Assembly (NCBI GenBank): GCA_015180985.1
Contig: CP054185.1
Span: 2,479,225-2,543,224 of the forward strand
Origin: Flammeovirgaceae bacterium
Lineage (GTDB): Bacteria > Bacteroidota > Bacteroidia > Cytophagales > Cyclobacteriaceae
DNA length: 64,000 bases
Reading direction: 5' to 3'
The translations under genes were made by a program, and so were the position numbers. Positions 51,719 to 53,519 of this stretch are shown piece after piece. The stretch's first letter is position 1; each line of letters starts with the position of its first letter. The notes below the pieces were generated by a model, which saw nothing but the letters and a program-made list of their open reading frames with translations, was not told where the DNA came from and ran no database searches.

Positions 51719-53170
51719 ATGACTCTTCGACTTTGTATCGCTCTTTGTTTTGTGTGGACTAATTCTTTAGCACAATATAAGCTTTACGAAGAGGGCCTGA
51801 AAAAGTACAACAACAAAGACTTCTATGGCGCCATAGAAACACTCTCCGATTTTTTAACCCGCCCTGTTCGCGATAAAAAGTTTGATGTAGATGCCTACTA
51901 CTGGCGGGGTATGGCTGCTTTTAAACTGGGTGACTATAATGTCGCTGCTGAAGACCTGAAACAAAGCCTTGCACTCAAACACGGCAATGTGGGCAATATT
52001 CACTGGTTTATTGCTAAATGCTACGAAAATGAAAAACTCTACAACGATGCCATTGTTGAATACTCTGAAGCGCTAAAAATTCTTCGTGCCGATAAGCAGA
52101 AGGAGTTTCAGATACTGACTGAGCGCTCCGGTGTGTATGCAAAAATGGGTAACACACCTTCTGCCATTGCCGACCTGCAGGCTGCGCAAGCCATTCAGCC
52201 AAACAACGAAACGGTTAAAAACAGTATCGCCATGCTGTCCGATCCCAAATCGCGAAATGCTGATGTAAAAACCGACTCAAATATTCCTGTTGTAGTTAAA
52301 AATGAACCTCAACAGAGGAAAGATGAACCGGTAAAGACTGAACCAAAAGTTGAAGTTAAACAGGAGCCTGTTAAAACTGAAGAAAAGGTTGTGACCAACC
52401 CCCAACCGGTTGTTCAATCCGTGGTAACAACACCTAAAGAACCCACCCTTGAAGAACTGTATGGTGATGAAAAACGCTATGCGCTGATTATCGGCAACTC
52501 GGCTTATTCAAAACAAATCGGGGTGCTTAAAAACCCGGTGAACGATGCCACTGATTTTGCCGAAGTTCTCAAAACCATGAATTTTGACGTTACCCTGATC
52601 ACCGATGCGAGTTACGGTAAAATCCGGGCCGAAATGATGAAGTTCAGGGATAAACTCAACCAGGGCGAACGCGATAAAACCGTAGGCCTCTTTTTTTATG
52701 CCGGGCACGGTTTGCAGCATGATAATGAAAACTATATCGTTCCGGTTGATGCCGAGATTATGTACGAAGATGATATTGCGCGATTCTGTTTCCCCATCCA
52801 GAAAATGGTGCTTGCCCAGATGGAAATGTCAAACAGCCGCATGAACATTGTTATTCTGGATGCCTGCCGGAATAATCCCTTTCCGGCCCTGCATCGAAGC
52901 ATTGGTGAATCCACCGGATTGGGAGAGATGAAAAAGGCCCGTGGCGCATTTATCGCCTATGCAACCTCACCGGGATCGGTAGCATCTGACGGTACCGGAC
53001 GTAACGGCCTTTACACGCAGGAGTTAATTAAAGCTATGAGTAAACCGGGCCGTACCATTGAGCAGGTTTTTAAAGAAGTGCGGGCCAATGTGTTAAGGCA
53101 ATCCGGTGACCGCCAAAACCCCTGGGAGAATTCAAATATTATTGGCGACTTCTATTTTAAGCTGAAATAA
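51719..53170 (+). CDS. TPR and caspase (peptidase C14) domain protein
   Basis: A 483-residue exported protein. Signal peptide about 1-18 (ending LAQ), tetratricopeptide repeats (about 20-165), a Pro/Lys/Glu/Val-rich linker (about 175-245), and a caspase-like domain (about 255-480). The catalytic pair is present: His330 in FYAGHGLQ and Cys383 in LDACRNNPF, so it may be an active metacaspase-type protease. The presence of a leader means it acts outside the cytoplasm. It follows the barrel protein gene on the same strand; the target is unknown. Confidence 0.92.
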   Translation: MTLRLCIALCFVWTNSLAQYKLYEEGLKKYNNKDFYGAIETLSDFLTRPVRDKKFDVDAYYWRGMAAFKLGDYNVAAEDLKQSLALKHGNVGNIHWFIAKCYENEKLYNDAIVEYSEALKILRADKQKEFQILTERSGVYAKMGNTPSAIADLQAAQAIQPNNETVKNSIAMLSDPKSRNADVKTDSNIPVVVKNEPQQRKDEPVKTEPKVEVKQEPVKTEEKVVTNPQPVVQSVVTTPKEPTLEELYGDEKRYALIIGNSAYSKQIGVLKNPVNDATDFAEVLKTMNFDVTLITDASYGKIRAEMMKFRDKLNQGERDKTVGLFFYAGHGLQHDNENYIVPVDAEIMYEDDIARFCFPIQKMVLAQMEMSNSRMNIVILDACRNNPFPALHRSIGESTGLGEMKKARGAFIAYATSPGSVASDGTGRNGLYTQELIKAMSKPGRTIEQVFKEVRANVLRQSGDRQNPWENSNIIGDFYFKLK

Positions 53171-53200
53171 TCCTGCGCGAACTGCAAAATAGTGGCAGTT

Positions 53201-53231
53201 TTTGGAGATCAGACACGGAAAGTTATCTTTG
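53201..53231 (+). promoter_or_regulatory. Consensus Bacteroidota promoter for the tRNA-Asp region
   Basis: TTTG (53201-53204), 19 bases, TATCTTTG (53224-53231): an exact match to TTTG-N19-TAnnTTTG. Transcription would begin just before the broken tRNA-Asp copy at 53245 and continue to the intact tRNA-Asp. Confidence 0.75.
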
Positions 53232-53244
53232 CACGCTGTTTATT

Positions 53245-53349
53245 GGTCCGGTAGTTCAGCTGGCCCTGATGGCGCAAAAGTGCATCAGGGTGCTGACCGA
53301 AGCGTCAGCATTAGAATGCCTGTCCCGCCAAGGCGGGAAGGTCGCGGGT
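53245..53349 (+). pseudogene. Broken tRNA-Asp copy carrying three inserted hairpins
   Basis: The first 19 bases (GGTCCGGTAGTTCAGCTGG), TTAGAATGCCTG and AGGTCGCGGGT equal the intact tRNA-Asp at 53392. Between the first two blocks is a 47-base insert of two perfect hairpins: CCCTGATG/CATCAGGG (53264-53290, 8 bp) and TGCTGAC/GTCAGCA (53291-53310, 7 bp). The anticodon arm is replaced by TCCCGCC-AA-GGCGGGA (53323-53338, 7 bp). The T arm breaks off and there is no 3' acceptor strand, so no tRNA can form. It lies just after a strong promoter and would be co-transcribed with the good copy. Confidence 0.8.
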
Positions 53350-53391
53350 AAACCGCAGAGTTCTAAAAACATGAACAGAAGTTATTTAATT

Positions 53392-53465
53392 GGTCCGGTA
53401 GTTCAGCTGGTTAGAATGCCTGCCTGTCACGCAGGAGGTCGCGGGTTCGAGTCCCGTCCGGACCG
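53392..53465 (+). tRNA. tRNA-Asp (GTC anticodon)
   Basis: A 74-base cloverleaf: acceptor GGTCCGG/CCGGACC, discriminator G as is usual for tRNA-Asp; D arm AGTTCAGCTGGTTAGAAT; anticodon stem CCTGC/GCAGG around CTGTCAC, giving anticodon GTC; T arm GCGGG-TTCGAGT-CCCGT. CCA is not encoded. It appears to be expressed from the promoter at 53201-53231 behind the broken copy, so 5' processing must remove a leader of about 150 bases. Confidence 0.97.
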
Positions 53466-53476
53466 CATTAACAAGT

Positions 53477-53497
53477 AAGCCCTTCAAGGGCTTTTTT
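53477..53497 (+). terminator. Intrinsic terminator after tRNA-Asp
   Basis: AAGCCCT (53477-53483), loop TCA, AGGGCTT (53487-53493) and a run of T to 53497. It ends the tRNA transcript 12 bases after the tRNA. Confidence 0.85.
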
Positions 53498-53519
53498 GTT
53501 AATTTTGAAGGAAGAACTT

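Follow-up and report, generated by a model that had tools for sequence, protein, structure and literature searches.

The sole tRNA-Asp gene of a Flammeovirgaceae bacterium (genome G000; 3.38 Mb in one contig) is preceded by a partial copy of itself that is interrupted by hairpins, which raises the question of what this structure is and how it came to stand in front of the gene. In the window, i.e. the whole stretch of 64,000 nucleotides that was analysed, the intact tRNA-Asp(GUC) gene occupies positions 53392..53466 (+ strand, as do all features of the locus given here) and is followed by a terminator-like hairpin with a T run, read from the sequence (53477..53500). The insert upstream of it is 147 bp long (53245-53391). 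It begins with tRNA-Asp positions 1-19 (GGTCCGGTAGTTCAGCTGG, 53245..53263; 19/19 identical to the intact gene), continues with hairpin 1 (hp1, CCCTGATGGCGCAAAAGTGCATCAGGG, 8-bp stem, 53264..53290) and hairpin 2 (hp2, TGCTGACCGAAGCGTCAGCA, 7-bp stem, 53291..53310), and resumes with tRNA-Asp positions 20-31 (53311..53322). Hairpin 3 (hp3, TCCCGCCAAGGCGGGA, of the TCCCGCC..GGCGGGA type, 7-bp stem, 53323..53338) then replaces positions 32-44, and is followed by positions 45-55 (53339..53349) and by a linker (53350..53391) with an ATG at 53371 (ATGAACAGAAGTTAT; the counterpart in the related genome G006 is ATGAACAACGTGTAT). All three hairpins are perfect, and hp1 and hp2 lie exactly between positions 19 and 20, directly after the GG of the D loop. 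This placement and the identity of the tRNA blocks (positions 1-19, 20-31 and 45-55, all without a mismatch) had been described in an earlier note on this DNA, and both were confirmed. Two of its statements had to be narrowed: hp3 has the 7-bp stem reported, but takes the place of positions 32-44 and not of the whole anticodon arm, so that the anticodon stem keeps some of its 5' strand, and the 3' half is not wholly missing, since positions 45-55 are retained.

A Bacteroidota-type promoter (TTTG-N19-TATCTTTG, 53201..53231), conserved in the empty locus of G003 and the occupied one of G006, precedes the copy. It was the single site found when 53100-53400 was scanned for TAnnTTTG, with none before the intact gene, which agrees with the location between promoter and intact tRNA given in the earlier note. 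Because the sole promoter-like site precedes the partial copy, transcription of the intact tRNA-Asp seems to run through the unit. Folding of the precursor predicts a suggestive alternative pairing, between the stranded GGUCCGG and the 3' strand of the acceptor. An Rfam search of the window identified three tRNAs and nothing else, and thus neither a known RNA family for the unit nor a group I intron in the tRNA. A caspase/TPR gene and tRNA-Asp are co-directional in the window (51719-53466) and convergent in G003 (L006) and G005; this change of orientation is a local rearrangement near the insert.

The arrangement is no one-off scar. G006 shares the insert of the window (84% identity over the locus), and in G008 a half copy of tRNA-Asp with hp1-hp2 matches that genome's own variant tRNA (GGACCGG); chance is excluded because the unit is also present in these two genomes. 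In G003 the promoter is directly followed by the tRNA, i.e. the site is empty, and the unit is missing from most of the genus, while G001 has a 5' half copy of tRNA-Asp with a different palindrome (CTCCCGATAGTTATCGGGAG) in the D arm. The tRNA blocks are identical while the linkers diverge, so that gene conversion or selection apparently blurs the history of the blocks. The site may have been empty at first and then invaded, or the insert may have been lost precisely in G003.

At tRNA-Ser(UGA) the orthologous locus was found in three states in three sister species: empty in G003, with a full element in G000, and ORF-less in G006. In G000 a 5' part of the tRNA, hairpins, an ORF and the intact tRNA follow one another; the insert is 374 bp long, an ORF with a GIY-YIG nuclease domain is its sole ORF, and about 20 nt (leader plus tRNA positions 1-14) are repeated at both ends. 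In G006 the 5' part and an inverted repeat are present and the ORF is missing. Occupied and empty alleles at an orthologous site thus occur among G000, G003 and G006 for both tRNA-Ser and tRNA-Asp. The tRNA-Asp unit of the window, in which the ORF check found no ORF for a GIY-YIG nuclease (53245-53391), is in the same state as the ORF-less tRNA-Ser locus of G006. The linker of the G006 tRNA-Asp unit (ATGAACAACGTGTAT) reads MNNVY, which resembles the consensus MxxVYIL of the ORF start; the five codons from the ATG of the linker, in the window and in G006, may on this slight resemblance be all that is left of a GIY-YIG ORF. We consider it likely that the unit in the window is a decayed, ORF-less derivative of a GIY-YIG element which invades tRNA genes, regenerates the tRNA and carries a mobile double hairpin; it would then once have contained an ORF. 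The suggestion of the earlier note that palindromic mobile elements aim at tRNA genes was right in outline and is strengthened by the relatives, except that the palindromes are one part only of a larger class of insert, to which a regenerated tRNA and a GIY-YIG ORF also belong.

The double hairpin recurs as a single unit at several sites. In partial copies of tRNA-Asn (G000, G003) and tRNA-Asp (G006, G008) it lies at an identical point of the D loop, and it is also present in the T loop of partial tRNA-Phe, tRNA-Trp and tRNA-Asp copies, always before TT or between two T. Within the genus, each of the 16 copies of hp2 (at most one mismatch) has a tRNA at a distance of about 1 kb or less, and the control gave no hits. 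In the family, where hp2 at tRNA loci has a near-invariant signature (TGCTGACCNNNGCGTCAGCA), the palindrome search that the earlier note had proposed gave 44 exact matches to the hp2 pattern in 30 of 391 genomes and 0 for the reversed control pattern. Further hp2 loci of the family (21) were fetched: at 18 of them an intact tRNA (Phe, His, Trp, Asp or Met) is found within 760 nt, and the remaining three, which are situated on short contigs or close to a contig end, show tRNA-like 3' sequence directly after hp2. At most of the 21, a GIY-YIG ORF ends shortly 5' of the hairpins. The stems covary: changes on both sides were observed in 6 of the 14 pairs of hp1 and hp2, a level reached by 0/500 shuffles, in an alignment with the 5' arm anchored on tRNA sequence, loops excluded and two misanchored rows dropped by hand. 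The compensation is concentrated in hp1 (5/7 pairs), whose loop varies among loci; hp2 hardly varies and shows a single compensated change.

The small ORF with a GIY-YIG domain (PF01541 in 16/16) parts many half copies from the intact tRNA. In complete elements it is about 80-140 codons long, with the start consensus mentioned above and the invariant residues Y6, Y17, G19, R27, H31 and E63, and the layout is either a tRNA-[ORF-3' part]n array or 5' part-ORF-tRNA. Tandem arrays comprise four ORF copies at tRNA-Pro (G016), two at Met and two at Pro; in G016 (L233, 1500-2840) four near-identical ORFs stand behind the intact tRNA-Pro, each followed by tRNA-Pro positions 45-75. Among the tRNA-linked GIY-YIG group of the genus, 25/32 ORFs lie no more than 300 nt from a tRNA and point in its direction without exception, as against 0/20 other small GIY-YIG ORFs and 0/10 Y1-transposase loci; the two GIY-YIG groups were split by an HMM trained on tRNA-adjacent members, and the split is not fully independent. 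In a sample of the phylum the same distance was found for 58/70 GIY-YIG loci, and 58/58 were co-directional, while, with about 42 tRNAs in 3.4 Mb, tRNA flanks of 300 nt make up less than 1% of such a genome. By sequence, the closest solved structures are 1zg2, 1ywl and SLX1, i.e. UPF0213 / Slx1-type GIY-YIG proteins, which to our knowledge have not been regarded as tRNA-anchored mobile genes; phage homologues are distant (<60% identity). As the GIY-YIG ORF at tRNA-Phe of G000 is a 48-codon fragment (L041, 1091-1198), the hp1-hp2 lineage was found there without an intact ORF.

The half copies themselves were surveyed at 211 tRNA loci of the Bacteroidota, a set enriched for GIY-YIG loci, by means of exact matches of at least 12 nt to the neighbouring tRNA. 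The 116 direct copies (there were 4 inverted matches) are strongly polar: upstream copies repeat the 5' half in 44/46 cases and downstream copies the 3' half in 63/70. A perfect hairpin with a stem of at least 7 bp was found in 105/189 copy clusters, compared with 203/3121 background windows (6.5%), and 84/189 clusters are without such a stem. In G000, where every tRNA was examined, half copies occur at Phe, Leu(CAG), Trp, Asn, Asp, Lys and Ser(UGA). Two tandem arrays are ORF-less and have a palindrome in each unit: one of five units of about 170 bp at tRNA-Val (L098), which retain a stretch resembling the ORF start, and one of about four units of 81 bp at tRNA-Met (L152).

The relationship between nuclease, target and palindrome was examined on a tree of 94 GIY-YIG proteins, which has few columns and many weak forks. 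The tRNA isotype changes 25 times on it, as against a shuffled mean of 62.4 (0/200 as low), and the host family 46 times (shuffled, 50.3). Palindrome class requires 10 changes versus 27.7 when shuffled, and 15.4 (minimum 12; 0/300 as low) when shuffled within isotype, with classes set after the data had been seen and two rows that repeat one locus; for host family on the same rows there is no signal (20 versus 20.6). In a class-free test, run without the repeat rows, in 28/55 cases the nearest protein from another host family had a palindrome-arm 5-mer in common, whereas shuffles gave a mean of 8.8 and a maximum of 19, or a mean of 17.1 within isotype, where 1/1000 was as high. For example, tRNA-Met units in three host families carry TCCGCC..GGCGGA, while at tRNA-Pro one clade has TGGCGC..GCGCCA and the other CCCGAC..GTCGGG, on either side of the tRNA. 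The ORF tree clusters by target tRNA, the palindrome type keeps to the protein lineage even among elements of a single isotype, and neither the tree nor the palindrome follows the host.

By analogy with the phage nuclease SegB, the GIY-YIG nuclease would cut a tRNA gene, and repair or recombination would then copy in the element together with part of the tRNA, so that an intact tRNA is again present. The old part of the tRNA would be stranded on the far side, i.e. a 5' part if the element lies upstream and a 3' part if it lies downstream, with the palindromes at or near the break, and the host would survive because the near side holds an intact tRNA. A complete element would comprise one GIY-YIG ORF, oriented like the tRNA. 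In the window, the 5' part of tRNA-Asp would have been stranded behind its native promoter, marked by hp1-hp2 and hp3, and the ORF lost, so that tRNA-Asp would now be expressed through an ORF-less wreck. The protein or its complex presumably recognises the palindrome. Recognition as a hairpin or cruciform would fit better than a rigid duplex site, because within one palindrome type the spacer varies by 1-2 nt while the stems stay fixed.

Alternatively, the unit might result from ordinary decay, i.e. from a tandem tRNA duplication whose spare copy later gathered unrelated REP-like palindromes. Tandem duplication is indeed visible in G000, where the tRNA-Leu(CAG) copy takes in its terminator, and palindromes of the hp3 type are found there at 7 sites, 3 beside tRNAs and 4 away from them. 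Such a history is nevertheless unlikely, given that hp2 is tied to tRNA loci, that the half copies are polar, that hp1-hp2 entered at exact loop positions in four tRNAs, and that palindrome type tracks the lineage of the ORF in different host families and even inside a single isotype. A REP/RAYT origin of the palindromes was rejected: the Y1 (HUH) transposases of the genus are linked neither to them nor to tRNAs, their loci do not coincide with hp2 places, and no GTAG or CGTC tag was found in the aligned ends and flanks of hp1-hp2.

The other proposal of the earlier note was a structured leader RNA of tRNA-Asp origin with an influence on how the intact copy is processed or on its dosage. The position between promoter and tRNA-Asp, the conservation of the hairpins in G006 with compensation, and the pairing of GGUCCGG with the acceptor would suit such a function. 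We regard it as improbable, as the unit is absent from G003 and most of the genus, inserts of the same class are situated downstream of other tRNAs and beside an ORF, and any duplicate would be expected to compete for pairing; an influence on tRNA-Asp as a side effect of the apparent read-through is conceivable. That the unit is the scar of a phage or ICE borne by an integrase is highly improbable. Stranded tRNA parts at tRNA genes are classic for integrases (PMC9897764), but the inserts contain no integrase (147 bp and ORF-less at Asp; 374 bp with a GIY-YIG ORF only at Ser), and 5' parts are stranded as well as 3' parts; at tRNA-Asp it is a 5' part, in place of an att duplication of the 3' end. 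The note was correct in taking the duplicated 5' half as an argument against an integrase site, and the family uses both halves, the choice varying with the side on which the insert lies. Although assemblies can go wrong at short inverted repeats, an artefact is hardly credible for an arrangement that recurs in independent genomes, at Asp in G006 and G008 and at Asn in G000 and G003.

An invading and tRNA-regenerating GIY-YIG element, the reading that we prefer, has partial counterparts among known systems. According to the portion of PMC13096335 considered here, SegB is a free-standing GIY-YIG homing endonuclease of T-even phages which is encoded beside tRNA genes, cuts inside them (motif RAWTSGAAC) and causes tandem amplification of tRNA and nuclease gene by recombination. 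It shares with the elements described here the GIY-YIG gene adjoining tRNA genes and the tandem tRNA and nuclease copies, and the reverse complement of its motif resembles the T-loop motif; SegB, however, is phage-borne and the present elements are chromosomal, and the same portion describes neither a stranded tRNA half with palindromes nor a palindrome tied to a protein lineage (PMC13096335). SegB is the closest tested analogue, likened here by its description and not by protein sequence. In the mitochondrial atp6 gene of Allomyces, the mobile ORF360 reportedly places an endonuclease ORF in the gene, the gene end being rebuilt and the old end stranded; this is a single case in a mitochondrial protein gene, and no palindromes are known to us there. 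Mitochondrial double-hairpin (repetitive hairpin-forming) elements are similar in form, as two adjacent short hairpins at several places with compensated changes, but as far as they are summarised in PMC2800124 (citing Paquin 2000) they are organellar, without a link to a nuclease lineage, and not confined to tRNA copies. REP palindromes and RAYT transposases likewise combine short palindromes with a dedicated nuclease-like protein; they differ in the HUH tyrosine transposase and GTAG tag, neither of which is present here, and in the dispersal of REPs (PMC3733652). A literature search confined largely to published open-access papers gave no earlier description of Bacteroidetes GIY-YIG proteins at tRNA genes and nothing specific on palindromes inside bacterial tRNA copies, an absence that is weak evidence, and a term search in the accessible text of the GIY-YIG superfamily survey (PMC1564403) revealed no mention of a link with tRNA genes. 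Because of this scope, the novelty of the element is provisional.

If our reading is right, tRNA genes across a bacterial phylum host a minimal selfish element whose single ORF has about 80 codons and which survives in essential single-copy genes by restoring them. This would explain the tRNA half copies adjoining intact tRNAs in these genomes, would connect small palindromic repeats with a non-HUH nuclease of their own, and would provide ready sets of nuclease, palindrome and tRNA for studying target choice. It is possible, and we put it forward tentatively, that GIY-YIG proteins mobilise a new class of palindromic elements, in which each lineage has its own palindrome and RNA-gene target (tRNA isotypes, rnpB), rebuilds the essential gene that it breaks and rides on its promoter. 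ORFs in the loops of long palindromes, in G000 and other genomes, would be the same class of GIY-YIG element outside tRNAs.

A number of individual loci remote from tRNAs were recorded. In L303 (about 1300-2044) the RNase P RNA gene contains a GIY-YIG ORF. An inverted repeat of about 24 bp (CCCAGCACATAACGTTCATTGTTC) flanks this ORF, which apparently occupies the loop of a P3-like stem and is co-directional with rnpB. In L276 a GIY-YIG ORF is located just upstream of rnpB (1050-1549, - strand). A tRNA-remote ORF of the tRNA-linked group is present in G000 (L313, 1400-1720; G000:C1 about 2620700), in a palindrome loop of the form GGCCCGTGAAATA..ORF..TATTTCACGGGCC. GIY-YIG ORFs in palindrome loops also occur inside apparent protein genes in L299, L298 and L285, the hosts being, as judged by eye from the translation, a sugar dehydratase and two tyrosine recombinases; the ORF of L299 is accompanied by a duplicate of the beginning of the gene that it invaded, following the same logic as at tRNAs.
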